Source of the DNA: Prevotella sp.
Lineage (GTDB): Bacteria; Bacteroidota; Bacteroidia; Bacteroidales; Bacteroidaceae
Assembly (NCBI GenBank): GCA_017470345.1
Contig: JAFUEP010000042.1
Location: forward strand, 124,001-188,000
Reading direction: 5' to 3'
DNA: 64,000 nucleotides
The stretch's first letter is position 1, and every line of letters starts with the position of its first letter. The notes beneath the pieces were generated by a model. That model saw only the letters and a program-made list of their open reading frames with translations. It had not been told where the DNA came from and did no database searches. Of this stretch, positions 7,181-60,881 are shown in pieces. Position numbers and translations under genes: made by a program.

Positions 7181-7268
7181 GAACAAACTCGGCGATTTTG
7201 ATTAACAAAGTCGCCGAGTTTGTCCTACAAAATCGCCGAGTTTGTTCTACAAAGTCGCCGACTTTGTT
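7181..7268. repeat. Tandem array of four 22-bp quasi-palindromic units (CAAA...TTTG type)
   Basis: Four units have cores starting at 7184, 7206, 7228 and 7250, exactly 22 bp apart. Each core is CAAA-N9-TTTG with a centre related to GTCGCCGAG. The first unit has the centre in the opposite orientation to the next two, and the fourth is nearly fully palindromic. The spacers are 5 bp. It lies in the 600-bp region between the divergent PadR and GH53 genes. It has the same architecture as the AAG...CTT arrays elsewhere in the window but a different core. Confidence 0.85.
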
Positions 7269-18698: not shown

Positions 18699-18808
18699 AA
18701 AAGCGCCACTTCCCCAAAAGAGAAGTGCCGCTTTGAAGGCAGAGAAGCGGTCCTTTGAGGGCAGAGAAGTACCGCTTTGAGGGCAGCGAAGTGCCACTTT
18801 GTCAAGAG
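18699..18808. repeat. Array of five 22-bp units (AAG...CTT type)
   Basis: Cores start at 18702, 18724, 18746, 18768 and 18790, an exact 22-bp period. The ten-base cores read AGCGCCACTT, AGTGCCGCTT, AGCGGTCCTT, AGTACCGCTT and AGTGCCACTT, so the flanks stay constant while the centre varies and flips. Linkers are close to TGAGGGCAGAGA. The array begins 3 bp past the stop of the ABC transporter gene and lies upstream of mutA. Confidence 0.9.
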
Positions 18809-18811
18809 GGG

Positions 18812-20650
18812 TCAAATGCCGTCGCCTGTGTATAGGCTATAATACTGTCCGTGGAGGTCGAGCAGCTCCTGGTGCGTACCATGCTCGGCAATGCGTCCAT
18901 GGTCGAGCACGATGATCTGATCGGCATTGCGGACGGTCGAAAGGCGATGGGCGATGACAAAGGTGGTGCGCCCCTGCATGAGCGAGTCCATGCCCCGCTG
19001 GACGAGCTGTTCCGTGCGGGTGTCGATGGAGCTGGTGGCCTCGTCGAGGATGAGCACAGGCGGATTGGCTACTGCGGCGCGTGCAATGGCCAGCAGCTGG
19101 CGCTCGCCCTGCGAGAGGTTGCCGCCGTCGCCCTGCAGCAGAGTCTGATAGCCCTGAGCCAGACGGAGGATGAAGTCGTGGGCTCCGACGAGCTGGGCAG
19201 CGCGCACGCAGTCGTCGTCAGTAGCCTCGAGACAGCCGTAGCGGATGTTGTCGAGCACCGTGCCCGTGAAGAGATGGGTCTCCTGGAGGACGATGGTCAT
19301 GCTGCGGCGCAGCGATGTCTTTCGGATGTCGTTGATGGGAATACCGTCGTAGAGTATCTCGCCCTTCTGGATATCATAGAAGCGGTTAATGAGATTGATG
19401 ATCGTGGTCTTGCCCGCCCCCGTTCCGCCCACGAAGGCAATCTTCTGGCCAGGGTTGGTGTTGATGTCGATATCGAACAGCACCTGCTTCTCAGCCGTAT
19501 AGCCAAAGTCGACGTCGCGGAAGTCGACATCGCCCTTGGGGTCTGTCAGCTCGCGCGTGCCCTCGTCCACCTCTAGAGCGGCATCGCCCAGGGCGAAGAC
19601 GCGCTCAGCGCCCACGGATGCATTGAGCACGGAGTTGATCTGCTGGCTGACGTGCGAGATGGGCTGGGTAAAGCTCTTGTTCAGCTGTAGGAACGAGACG
19701 ATGGTGCCGAGCGTAATGGAGAATTGAAAATTGAGAATTGAGAAGTGGTTGAGTGCGAGTGATGCGCCCACGACGGCTATCAGCACATAGGCCAGGTTGC
19801 CAAGGTTGCCATTGACAGGCATGACGATATTGGCGATCTTATTGGCATTATAGGCCGACGAGCGAAGCCGCTCGTTGATCAGCTCGAACTGGCTGATGGC
19901 CTGCTGCTCATGACAGAACACCTTGACGACCTTCTGCCCCGTCATCATCTCCTCGATGAAGCCGTTGACCTGAGCCAGCGACTCCTGCTGGGTGCGGAAA
20001 TAGCCGCGCGACCACTGGCCCAGACGGGTCGTGACGACCATCATGACGGCTGCCATCACGATGCTGACCAGCGTCAATGGTACGGAGAGCACCACCATCG
20101 ACGAGAAAGTGGCCACGATGGTGATGACGCTGGAGAAGACCTGTGCCATCGCCGTGGAGATCATCTGGCGCAACGAGTCGACATCGTTGGTATAGACAGA
20201 CATCAGCTCGCCATGGGAGTGCTGGTCGAAATAGCTGATGGGCAGCTTCTGCATGCGCTCGAAGATCTGCTTTCTGAGGCGCAACATCGTGCCCTGCGAG
20301 ACATTGATCATCAGGCGGTTGTAGGTGTAGCTGGCAATGACGCCAAGCAGCAGCACGAGTCCCAGCTTGAACAGAGTCTGCATGAGCGAGGCATACTCAG
20401 GATTGGCCACCTGGGTGAGAGGCACGATGTAGTCGTCGATGAGCGTGCGGGTGAAGAGCGTGGAAGCGAGCGACGTGATGCTCGACACGACGATGCAGGC
20501 GAGCACGGTCAGGATGGAGAAGCGATAGTTGCGCATGACATAGCCAAAGAGCCGCAGCATGACCTGACGCTGCTGGCGCGACGCCCGCTGAAATCCGGCA
20601 TTCTGTCCTGGGTGCCCCTGCGGGCCTCGATTGAAGTTAGGCTGTCTCAT
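18812..20650 (-). CDS. ABC exporter subunit with canonical ATPase site
   Basis: A 612-residue half-transporter of the multidrug/lipid exporter type. A six-helix membrane domain (about 30-345) precedes a nucleotide-binding domain with Walker A GGTGAGKTT, signature LSQGERQ and Walker B LILDEATSSID (catalytic Glu present). The start overlaps the stop of the upstream ABC gene by 4 bp, so the two are translationally coupled and very likely form a heterodimer. Its N-terminal tail is Gln/Arg/Pro-rich. A short low-complexity insertion (HFSILNFQFS) in the membrane domain is encoded by a repeat tract at 19719-19746. The substrate is unknown. Confidence 0.92.
   Translation of the reverse strand: MRQPNFNRGPQGHPGQNAGFQRASRQQRQVMLRLFGYVMRNYRFSILTVLACIVVSSITSLASTLFTRTLIDDYIVPLTQVANPEYASLMQTLFKLGLVLLLGVIASYTYNRLMINVSQGTMLRLRKQIFERMQKLPISYFDQHSHGELMSVYTNDVDSLRQMISTAMAQVFSSVITIVATFSSMVVLSVPLTLVSIVMAAVMMVVTTRLGQWSRGYFRTQQESLAQVNGFIEEMMTGQKVVKVFCHEQQAISQFELINERLRSSAYNANKIANIVMPVNGNLGNLAYVLIAVVGASLALNHFSILNFQFSITLGTIVSFLQLNKSFTQPISHVSQQINSVLNASVGAERVFALGDAALEVDEGTRELTDPKGDVDFRDVDFGYTAEKQVLFDIDINTNPGQKIAFVGGTGAGKTTIINLINRFYDIQKGEILYDGIPINDIRKTSLRRSMTIVLQETHLFTGTVLDNIRYGCLEATDDDCVRAAQLVGAHDFILRLAQGYQTLLQGDGGNLSQGERQLLAIARAAVANPPVLILDEATSSIDTRTEQLVQRGMDSLMQGRTTFVIAHRLSTVRNADQIIVLDHGRIAEHGTHQELLDLHGQYYSLYTGDGI
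19719..19746. repeat. TCAATTCTC-type low-complexity tract within the ABC gene
   Basis: On the minus strand the sequence is a run of TCAATT(C/T)TC units encoding HFSILNFQFSI. The tract is AT-rich in an otherwise GC-rich gene and lies before ITLGTIVSFLQ in the membrane domain. It looks like an in-frame insertion of an intergenic-type repeat. Confidence 0.5.
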
Positions 20651-30700: not shown

Positions 30701-30744
30701 AATAGTAACTTACGATTTTCAGATTTACGATTTACTATTGATTC

Positions 30745-34040: not shown

Positions 34041-37000
34041 ATGATTGGAATCAGAAATTTTTATCGTAAATTTGCAAGTCGGTTAGCCGAAGTCACAAAC
34101 TTTTGGCAACTCTGTCTGTCAGTTTTGAAGCATTTGAAGAACATCATCAGCTGGACCATCTGGACGCTCGTCGCCCTCTATGTCCTTGGATTGATCCTCG
34201 TCCACCTGCCCCCTGTGCAGGAGCGTCTGGGGTCGAGGGTGGCCGCTATGCTTGCAAAGAAGCTCGACACGGAAGTCAATATCGGGCGCATCGACTTGGG
34301 GCTGTTCAATCGGATCATTGTGGACGACGTGCTCATCAAGGACCAGGCCGACAGCACCCTGCTGAAAGCCAACAGGTTGTCAGCACGAATCGAGCTACTG
34401 CCCTTGCTCAACGGGCGCGTCAGCATCTCGTCGGCCCAGTTGTTCGGCGCCCAAGCTCATGTCTATAAGGCTGACTCCGTCGCACCGCTCAACATGCAAT
34501 TTGTGCTCGACGCCTTCGCCTCGAACGACACGACCAGCCAGTCGGGCCTCGACCTGCGCATCAATTCGCTCATCATCCGCCACTCGTCAGCCCGCTACGA
34601 CAGATACGACGTCCTTGAGACACCTGGCCGTCTGAATGCCCGTCACGTGAACCTGAGCGACATCAGCGCCCACATCCAGCTACGCGCCCTGCGCCCCGAT
34701 TCAGTCAACCTCACCATCAAGCGACTGGCCATGCGCGAGCAGTCAGGTCTCAACGTCAAGCGACTGTCGCTCCGCGTCGAGGGCAATGACGAAGAAGCGT
34801 ATTTATCTGATTTACAACTTCAAATGCCTGCTTCGCTGATTCGTATTGATTCGCTTTCGGCAAAGTACCGCTTTGAAGGTCGCAAAGCGGCACTTCGCTT
34901 CAAGGGAAGTGCCGCTTCGCCAGGCTTGAAGTTGCCCGACTTCGCATTCATTTATCCCGACCTTCGAAAGTTTGGCGAAGCACTGGCTTTCAACGTCGAA
35001 TTCAGCGGCACGGAAGAGAGTATCGACATCCCTCGTCTCAACATCCATTCAGAGTCAAACGACCTGTCGCTCATGGCCACATTATCAGCCAGCAAGCAGG
35101 ACGAGCGACTCATCTGGTCGGCTCCGGACTATCAGTTGAGCGCCAGCAGCCAGCTGATTGCCCAGTTGAAACAGGCTTTCGCTCAGATGCCCGACCTGGC
35201 CACCCGACTCGGCGATGTCAGGATTTCAGGACGGACCAACAGGCTTGCCTCTGGCGACATCACTTCCGAGAACGACATTGCCACCTCGATCGGACGGCTC
35301 AGCACCCTCCTCACCATCGGAGCCGACAAGCAGTTCCGAGGCCACCTCGACACGGATAGTTTCCATCTCGGCCAGCTGCTCGACCAGTCGAAACTGGGCG
35401 TACTCGCCACCAAGGTCAACCTGAGTGGCACCCCGCAGGCCGTCAACGCCGAAGGAACCATTGCCCGCCTCGATTTCAACGACTACCATTATCAGGGCAT
35501 TGAGCTCAACGCCACCTACAGCGACGGCGACATTGCAGGCAAGCTGAAGATCGACGACCCCAACATTACGACTGACGTGGAGGGCGAGTTGCGCAAGGGC
35601 CCGCGCTCGGCTGTCAGGCTGACAGGCTTCATCCGCAACCTATCACCCCATGCGCTCCACCTCACCGACCAATGGGGCGACGCCCAGTTCTCGGCCATCA
35701 TCGACGCCGACTTCGTCGCTTCGTCGCTCAACGATGCCGAAGGAAGTCTCGATCTCGACGACTTTTACATGACAAGGCCCGACTCCGCCGCTGTCGTCTA
35801 TCATCTCGACAACCTCCACATCAAGTCTGGATATGAAGACGACTTGCACTTCATGCGCCTCAACGGCGACATGGGCGAGATGGAACTGGAGGGACAGTTC
35901 GACTGGGCCACCCTGCCTCAGAGCTTCATCAACTACACAGGCTCAAAACTCCCCACCCTGCCTGGCCTGCCTAAGACCACACGCACGTCAGACAACAATT
36001 TCGACGTCAGCATCCGACTCTCTGACGCCCAATGGCTCAGCAACCTGTTCGGACTGCCCCTGACGCTCAATCGTCCCTTAGCGCTCACAGCCAAAGTCAA
36101 CGACCAGACCAGCGAGCTCGACATCAACGCTGAGATTCCTGACTTCATCTACGACGGCAGTCAATATGCAGGCGGAATGATCCAGCTGACCACCATTGGC
36201 GACACAGCCCTCTGCGACGCACGACTCACCCGTCTCACGGAAAGCCAGCGCCGCATGAATCTCCATCTGACTGCCCAAGCTGCTGACAACAACCTGGTCA
36301 CGTCGCTCGCCTGGGACAACGAGAATCGCACGGACGGCGAAGCCTTCAGCGGCATCATCAACGCCATCACACAGCTCTACACCAACGACAGCGGAAAGCC
36401 TGAAGCACACGTGCGAGTACAACCATCGCGCGTCAACATCCAAGGCACGGAGTGGGAGCTCGAGCCTTCCGACATCCTCTACTCCGACCAGCGACTCATG
36501 GTCGACCGCTTCAACCTGCGCCACGACGACCAGCACCTCATCGTCGACGGCATCGCATCGAAACAGACATCCGACTCGCTGATGATCGACCTCAACGGCA
36601 TCGAGGTAGCCTACGTCCTTGAACTCGTCGACTTCCATGCCGTCGACTTCGGAGGCAAAGCCTCAGGAAAGGCCTTCATCACCCAAGCCTTCAGCGACTT
36701 CAACGCCTGGGCCGACCTCGAAGTGGCCGACTTCACGTTCCAGGACGGCCCCATGGGCACGCTCGTCGCCAGAGCAGAATGGAGCAAGGAGGACAAGCAG
36801 GTAGAGCTCGACGCCTTTGCTGACGACGGTCCTGACGCACAAACCTTCATCGAGGGATTCATCGCTCCCAGCCGCGACGACATCAATCTGCTCATTCGCG
36901 CCCGAGGCACCAACATCGCCTTCGTCAACTCCTTCACTGACAGCTTTCTCGACAGGGTGAGCGGACAGGCCAACGGCGACGTCAGGCTCATCGGGCCTCT

Positions 37001-39743: not shown

Positions 39744-39831
39744 CGAAGCGGTCCTGTGTGCAGGACACAACGGTCCTTCGAGGTGGTCAAAGCGGTACTT
39801 TGAACGGTCTGAAACGGCACTTCGTTTCTGC
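39744..39831. repeat. Array of four 22-bp units between convergent genes
   Basis: Cores AGCGGTCCTG, AACGGTCCTT, AGCGGTACTT and AACGGCACTT start at 39747, 39769, 39791 and 39813, an exact 22-bp period. All four have the CGG end on the left, and the units are more degenerate than in other arrays. It lies between the nucleotidyltransferase terminator and the 3' end of dacB. Confidence 0.85.
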
Positions 39832-47469: not shown

Positions 47470-47526
47470 CCAGGAATGGCTCCTGGAATAATTAGATTTT
47501 ATTTTACAAACTGCGGTACATACTCA

Positions 47527-47614
47527 GAAAAGCACCGCTTCTCGCAACGTGAAGCGGTGCTTTTCGACTCAAAAAGCGGCACTTCTCGCATCGAAAAGCA
47601 CCGCTTCTTTTTTC
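47527..47614. repeat. Array of four 22-bp units forming a strong hairpin
   Basis: Cores AGCACCGCTT, AGCGGTGCTT, AGCGGCACTT and AGCACCGCTT start at 47531, 47553, 47575 and 47597, exactly 22 bp apart. Units 1 and 2 are inverted copies and can pair over 15 bp (GAAAAGCACCGCTTC with GAAGCGGTGCTTTTC). T/A runs flank the array. It lies between the convergent PL1 and 2-hydroxyacid dehydrogenase genes and could act as a bidirectional terminator. Confidence 0.92.
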
Positions 47615-47703
47615 ATCAAACAAGAATCGCCTGATAATCAACGATTTAGCAAATTAGCCCCAAATATTCTGAATTTTATTGACAAATCGAGTCTTTCAAC
47701 CAT

Positions 47704-60793: not shown

Positions 60794-60881
60794 CAAAGCG
60801 GTACTTCTTTGGTTATGAAGTACCGCTTTTCGTATGTCAAAGTACCGCTTCAAGGATGACGAAGCGGTACTTTTTTGTTGA
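60794..60881. repeat. Array of four 22-bp units forming hairpins
   Basis: Cores AGCGGTACTT, AGTACCGCTT, AGTACCGCTT and AGCGGTACTT start at 60797, 60819, 60841 and 60863, exactly 22 bp apart and arranged as an overall inverted repeat. Units 1 and 2 can pair over 13 bp (AAAGCGGTACTTC with GAAGTACCGCTTT). The array ends in a T-run. It lies between the convergent DUF5606 and outer-membrane receptor genes and probably terminates both. Confidence 0.92.

Follow-up and report, generated by a model that had tools for sequence, protein, structure and literature searches.

A row of short units spaced exactly 22 bp apart lies at positions 47527 to 47614 of a 64-kb stretch of Prevotella sp. DNA (the window), and the locus raises the question of what such a row is and what would hold its period fixed while its letters vary. 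The array class is real, occurs far above chance, and is more widespread than first supposed; in part it appears to be already known as PINSR, with one architecture uniting species-specific versions. The arrays may be phased sites for a dyad-symmetric DNA-binding protein, within a chromosome-structuring (BIME-like) element that is partly also a dispersed repeat. This reading is preferred tentatively, at not quite an even chance, and is ranked ahead of a selfish dispersed repeat.

Arrays and units in the window

Five arrays with exact 22-bp spacing had been predicted in the window, and all five were found, each in its place and with that spacing (Table 1); TRF reported a period of 22 at two of them (18719 to 18801 and 47527 to 47608). 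The array at 39744 has the four predicted units at 22 bp, but several of its arms are imperfect. Only three units are exact in the array noted at 34861, and the open frame around it gave a TamB match at residues 1034 to 1476. One more array with a 22-bp period, at 7183 to 7268, had been overlooked, which makes six; its letters are different. A TTCGCC-type array in another genome of the genus (L243:4366 in G093) resembles this sixth array.

Each unit has an 11-bp AAG-N5-CTT site and, after it, a linker of 11 bp. The linker comprises two half-arms around about three free bases, so that the 22-bp repeat is an imperfect dyad of about 19 bp plus about 3 bp. The original prediction placed constant flanks around a six-base CGGNNC center; the AAG and CTT flanks are indeed constant, but the core is 5 bp long and in the source genome, apart from a few exceptions, reads CGGYN or the reverse complement of CGGYN. 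The view of the arrays as a dispersed family rather than a simple tandem duplication was supported.

Heptad tandem repeats, AATTGAG and TTACGAT, are also present in the window (19715 to 19744 and 30710 to 30739), and intergenic self-similarity in the source genome peaks also at lags of 14, 21, and 28. No gathering-level match to Rfam was obtained anywhere in the window.

Table 1. Repeat arrays and associated boxes in the 64-kb window (G080, a close relative of the source genome)
Position	Feature	Remarks
7183..7268	22-bp dyad array, about four units, other letters (ACAAAGTCGCCGACTTTGT type)	grouped by geometry only
18701..18799	five-unit array	R and box looked for, neither found
34863..34917	three exact units inside a 1,492-aa open frame	ortholog in G080
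39746..39822	four units between convergent open frames	position-weight score 30; ortholog in G080
47495..47510	R-left end box, gattttattttacaaa	conserved in G080 ortholog
47530..47606	four 22-bp dyad units, cores CACCG, CGGTG, CGGCA, CACCG	75/77 bases identical in G080 ortholog
47632..47648	TGATAATCA box overlapping the presumed IHF consensus WATCARNNNNTTR	two changes in G080 ortholog
47671..47686	R-right end box, gaattttattgacaaa	conserved in G080 ortholog
60796..60872	four-unit array, cores CGGTA, TACCG, TACCG, CGGTA	ortholog in G080; R and box looked for, neither found

Abundance in the source genome

The spacing of exact AAGN5CTT units was examined in 464 kb of the source genome (G000), made up of the window and 400 kb of stretches. 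Such units were separated by 22 bp 46 times, by 44 bp 30 times, by 66 bp 16 times, and by 88 bp twice, with no distances of 20, 21, or 23 bp. Twenty Markov resamplings produced 0 unit pairs at 22 bp. Across the whole genome, 274 pairs of adjacent AAG-N5-CTT units had the 22-bp spacing, versus 0 for a reversed-pattern control, which places the pattern far above chance, as it is in other Prevotella genomes. Sixteen arrays were found from exact seeds in the 464 kb, 11 with four units and 5 with five when end units were accepted with as many as two mismatches in the arms; four is the usual number.

A position-weight scan with a cutoff score of ≥25 retained 17 elements in 444 kb of the source genome, 25 in 399 kb of G080 (RUG12472, whose long matches to the source genome are 88 to 97% identical), and 28 in 379 kb of G039. 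Retained elements scored 30 to 117, compared with null maxima of 1.0, −0.2, and −6.1 in the three genomes, respectively, and six matches scoring 3 to 22 (four in the source genome and two in G080) were left out. Called open frames contained 4 of the 17 source-genome elements.

Composite elements

The array at 47527, although present over its predicted extent, is only the middle of a composite of about 192 bp (47495 to 47686), in which R-left, four units, an IHF-consensus-like box, and R-right follow one another at fixed offsets. Among the 22 elements of the source genome and G080 with a box, R-left was identified by pattern in 13 and always ended 21 to 22 bp ahead of the array; R-right was identified in 15 and ended 77 to 78 bp past it, with one additional match at +30. 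The TGATWATCA box started 25 bp past the array in many elements of both genomes, and in elements with a box the last unit often precedes T-runs. Three of the 22 have just six of the nine box bases and are without R, and are thus chance-like. The box test was failed by 20 of the 42 elements in the two genomes, a set that includes several ortholog pairs and is therefore nonindependent; at least one of the 20 (G000C7:24089) has a slightly shifted box. Composites were full-length in only part of the 17 source-genome elements. R-type words that were intergenic or near arrays numbered 11 in 464 kb, with 10 of them located within 80 bp of an array.

The box at 47632 overlaps what we take to be the IHF consensus, as it is in other bacteria. 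Exact matches to this consensus from other bacteria were found at one shared offset in 13 of the 42 elements (0.006 expected per element), at one offset in 8 of 20 elements of P. histicola, and at two modal offsets in 8 of 28 elements of G039.

Sequence constraint and core orientation

Substitutions were counted in nine orthologous elements (36 units) of the source genome and G080. AAG and CTT were changed at 2 of 216 positions versus 245 of 2,607 in the flanks (coding sequence included), approximately 10-fold fewer. The cores carried 7 substitutions in 180 positions, all at the two variable positions and none in CGG. Spacers were changed at 13 of 135 positions and outer arms at 24 of 306, the latter nearly the flank rate. 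At 47530 to 47606, AAG, core, and CTT were unchanged in every unit. Of the proposal that a period of about two helical turns would place protein sites on one face of the DNA, the 22-bp phasing was supported, and AAG and CTT are under constraint.

The original prediction described a center that flips. Orientation does vary from unit to unit, but no flipping process was seen, with 0 of the 36 units changed in orientation between the two genomes. In none of eight species sets were neighboring cores more complementary than expected under random flipping, and selected pairing between units was rejected on this basis. Source-genome cores were complementary more often within elements than when shuffled across them (P = 0.012 at lag 1 and P = 0.001 at lag 2), which we read as likeness within elements.

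Taken with the exact phasing and the constraint on arms and CGG, the random orientation of the cores, which fits sites readable either way round, and the arrays inside an open frame, to which an RNA-only role is unsuited, point to sites in double-stranded DNA. A matched base-pair change in units 3 and 4 of one ortholog pair counts against a purely double-stranded reading. It is among the observations that would fit transcription terminators or 3′-end RNA hairpins, as are the T-runs common after the last unit, the frequent use of convergent gaps, and a long hairpin with a T-run in G080 at the ortholog of L008:19395. We regard this explanation as improbable, since complementary neighbors are no commoner than under the flip null, leaving the T-runs of an intrinsic terminator without its selected hairpin pairing, and since arrays also occur in divergent gaps and an open frame.

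Genomic placement and turnover

Sixteen of the 70 elements in the source genome, G080, and G039 were inside called frames, some of which are probably spurious given the crude ORF caller. The remainder were located in codirectional and convergent gaps and, less often, in divergent ones. Elements in G039 were spaced more evenly than random (coefficient of variation, 0.55 versus 0.91; P = 0.0002), with 0 of 24 gaps of <5 kb versus 8.4 expected; even spacing reached borderline significance in G080 (P = 0.05) and none in the source genome (P = 0.20). Uptake sequences are kept evenly spread and drift in dialects, and a DNA-uptake or self-recognition signal might by analogy account for the high copy number, the species dialects, and the spacing in G039. 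No link between arrays and competence was seen, however, and known uptake sequences are, to our knowledge, single short words rather than phased arrays; we consider such a signal the least probable of the readings weighed here.

Genes neighboring 119 elements were compared. The largest clusters contained 3 members from 3 species, giving no recurrent neighbor of the kind that would hint at an autoregulated binding protein, and no mobile-type neighbor gene common to the elements was noticed. An etfB-like gene was upstream of elements in both the source genome and P. histicola, and an FKBP-like gene in both the source genome and SRR2134673; with one neighbor each, this sharing was not above chance by a rough estimate and was discarded as a signal. 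Some arrays without a box are upstream of what we take to be promoter-like sequence, and phased dyads look like cooperative operators, both of which would suit a global transcription regulator. The use of convergent 3′ ends and open frames, together with the limited recurrence of neighbors, makes operators of this kind very unlikely, if marginally less so than an uptake signal.

Two loci were polymorphic between the source genome and G080. The element at L008:19395 of the source genome is absent in G080, where the orthologous region (L167:8884-9120, corresponding to L008:19300-19680) contains a single long hairpin, a T-run, and unit-like letters but no composite. The G080 element at L169:10112 has no counterpart in the source genome. 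Flanks differed at both loci, and no clean empty site was found at either. Source-genome contig 15 also carries a different dispersed repeat, about 150 bp long and containing GTTGACAACAGC-type words (L008:10141-10291), which has many G080 copies at approximately 80 to 91% identity, and a repeated stretch at L008:3052-3178 has several partial matches in G080.

Presence and absence at these loci would be expected of a nonautonomous dispersed repeat (MITE- or REPIN-like), in which arrays, R, and the IHF-like box would be sites for a transposase or recombinase and of little benefit to the host. The fixed length of the composite with boxes at both ends, the 39 further copies in G116 (described below), and the long flanks common to several arrays in one metagenome-assembled genome (MAG) also argue for it. 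Against it are the strong arm constraint at fixed loci, including arrays without R or box, and the lack of both a clean empty site and a shared mobile-type neighbor. With respect to MITEs, R boxes are direct in the source genome and inverted in G116, and there was no empty site from which to read a target duplication. The Y1 transposase family PF01797 was absent from 8 of 13 array-rich genomes, a further point against such a repeat, and was found in 5 of the 6 genomes that have zero AAG/CTT pairs; dependence on a RAYT is disfavored by this distribution. A purely selfish repeat is, on balance, a plausible but clearly weaker candidate.

Arrays in other genomes

When named genomes were scanned, at least 103 stretches matched, and among the 80 matches listed were arrays of three units in Prevotella histicola, P. 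bivia, Prevotella sp. KH2C16, Xylanibacter brevis, Segatella baroniae, and many Prevotella-type MAGs. The cores differ, with CTATS in G039, ATGCC, ACGCC, or GGCAC in P. histicola, and ATGAC or GTAAC in P. bivia. Among 398 genomes in the genus, a total that includes the source genome, 42 had 20 or more AAG/CTT pairs and a control count of ≤3. Three others (G376, G380, and G393) reached 20 pairs but had control counts of 493, 7, and 11, and in some the control exceeded the count (e.g., 0 versus 94 in G395). The figure of 42 is a lower bound, because G093, G173, and G232 have 0 AAG/CTT pairs yet contain 22-bp dyad arrays with other arms.

A sequence-free dyad scan (≥19 of 24 pairs) gave period-22 matches in G039 (16), G116 (7), G012 (5), and G383 (3), with at most one match in these genomes at any period of 18 to 21 or 23 to 26. 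G080 gave 17 matches at period 22 and 0 to 4 at periods 20, 21, 23, and 24. The source genome ran against this, with 15 matches at period 21 and 4 at period 22 under a looser threshold, an excess at 21 that was put down to its heptad-like repeats. The AAG/CTT counts of 32 genomes from other families were at control level, and 20 stretches (296 kb) of these genomes gave 0 period-22 matches at a threshold of 19 and one nonarray match at 18. Eleven stretches (203 kb) from genus members without pairs gave one match at 19 and two at 18, none array-like. The match at 19 consists of two strong palindromes 44 bp apart in G024, a genome without AAG/CTT pairs (L278:3195). In the SRR8387716 MAG, several arrays (L046, L063, L082, and L083) have long flanks in common (TCCGCACAGTG...), a sequence likeness that suggests recent copying of a larger repeat.

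Proposed role of the arrays

Under the preferred reading, that of a chromosome-structuring element, sites spaced 22 bp apart, most often four in a row, would be bound by a sequence-specific, dyad-symmetric protein whose specificity would differ from species to species. Many rows lie inside the composite of about 190 bp, with R boxes at both ends; the box, located some three helical turns beyond the final unit, would be of an IHF or HU type and bend the DNA, as in a compact nucleoprotein complex. The complex could act as a BIME-like anchor or insulator, mostly in intergenic regions, and the composite would also spread or turn over as a PINSR-like dispersed repeat. The protein, the bending by the box, and the structuring role are what we infer; no binding protein for the arrays was found. 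The recovery of 22-bp phasing by the sequence-free scan in genomes with other letters, the fixed offset of the IHF-like box, and the even spacing in G039 favor this reading. The elements that failed the box test, outer arms that change almost as fast as flanks, an IHF consensus that belongs to other bacteria, and even spacing that weakens in G080 and is not significant in the source genome count against it, and the conservation of copies might instead reflect gene conversion.

If no trans-acting reader existed, it would be hard to account for scores of loci that keep their geometry while their sequence drifts. The consensus of each species is a ready bait for such a reader, making a test of chromosome structuring possible in Bacteroidota. 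A broader proposal, a Prevotella-wide chromosome-organizing system in which the four-dyad, 22-bp geometry is fixed, recognition drifts with a fast-evolving protein, and PINSR is one dialect, is conceivable, although we would sooner doubt than assert it.

Relationship to PINSR and other repeats

The original prediction knew of no described family with this structure, a claim that did not survive, as PINSR seems to be one such family. As described in the portion of the report consulted, PINSR is a 188-bp intergenic repeat of the P. intermedia/nigrescens group, with 177 copies in one P. intermedia strain and 184 in another, about three-quarters of the places in common, an occurrence downstream of tnaA, and no terminal inverted repeats (Naito et al. 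2015; PMC4755523). In the same portion it was reported as clade restricted, with no PCR amplification from species of other clades, and section 3.4 describes it without mention of a 22-bp period, dyads, or an IHF site (PMC4755523).

G116, an assembly of 2.7 Mb in two contigs, carries a corresponding element downstream of a tnaA-like gene, whose match was below the curated cutoff of its family. Of 286 first-look candidates, 40 were scored, comprising the query and 39 others with 85 to 91% identity over about 188 bp; 22 of the 40 ended exactly at query base 188. Its units are AAAG-N5-STTT at 22 bp (208 pairs on one strand and 206 on the other, versus 0 for the control), and R-like ends and a box-like stretch follow the order of the window composite. 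On these sequence features, we infer that the G116 element is probably PINSR. If so, PINSR resembles the window composite (192 bp; 17 elements in 444 kb) in being a high-copy, intergenic repeat of about 190 bp with 22-bp units in Prevotella. The G116 element differs from that of the source genome in its cores and one arm, in an inverted right R box, and in copies that are more alike. Judged by structural kind and not by the letters of PINSR, the class extends beyond that clade to P. histicola, P. bivia, Xylanibacter brevis, Segatella baroniae, and rumen genomes, so that a repeat reported as clade specific becomes one case of a structural class in many Prevotella species.

No other literature on PINSR was found besides PMC4755523, and no other account of 22-bp or palindromic Prevotella repeats was found in the literature within scope, to which subscription journals and preprints did not belong. 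The parts consulted of PMC5771137, PMC2817692, PMC12306157, and other papers likewise gave no further account of the array. BIME/RIB elements of Escherichia coli are, in the part of the account consulted, mosaics of REP with an IHF site and a proposed chromosome role (PMC2817692). As far as that part describes them, the arrays are similar in being regularly spaced extragenic palindromes, often at gene ends, with a proposed chromosome role and a box at a fixed offset that may be an IHF site, and differ in unit length, letters, 22-bp spacing, lack of a consistent RAYT, and an orientation that is random rather than alternating. Like REP/BIME, the arrays are extragenic clusters of imperfect palindromes, regular in layout and high in copy number; they lack the alternating orientation and the cognate RAYT (Y1_Tnp).

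Iteron arrays of plasmid origins contain a few sites of about 22 bp on one face of the DNA, an IHF site, and AT-rich repeats nearby. The arrays may be comparable to iterons in their few, approximately 22-bp sites on one DNA face and their IHF-like site, and differ from them in their scores of chromosomal copies and in the use of both unit orientations.
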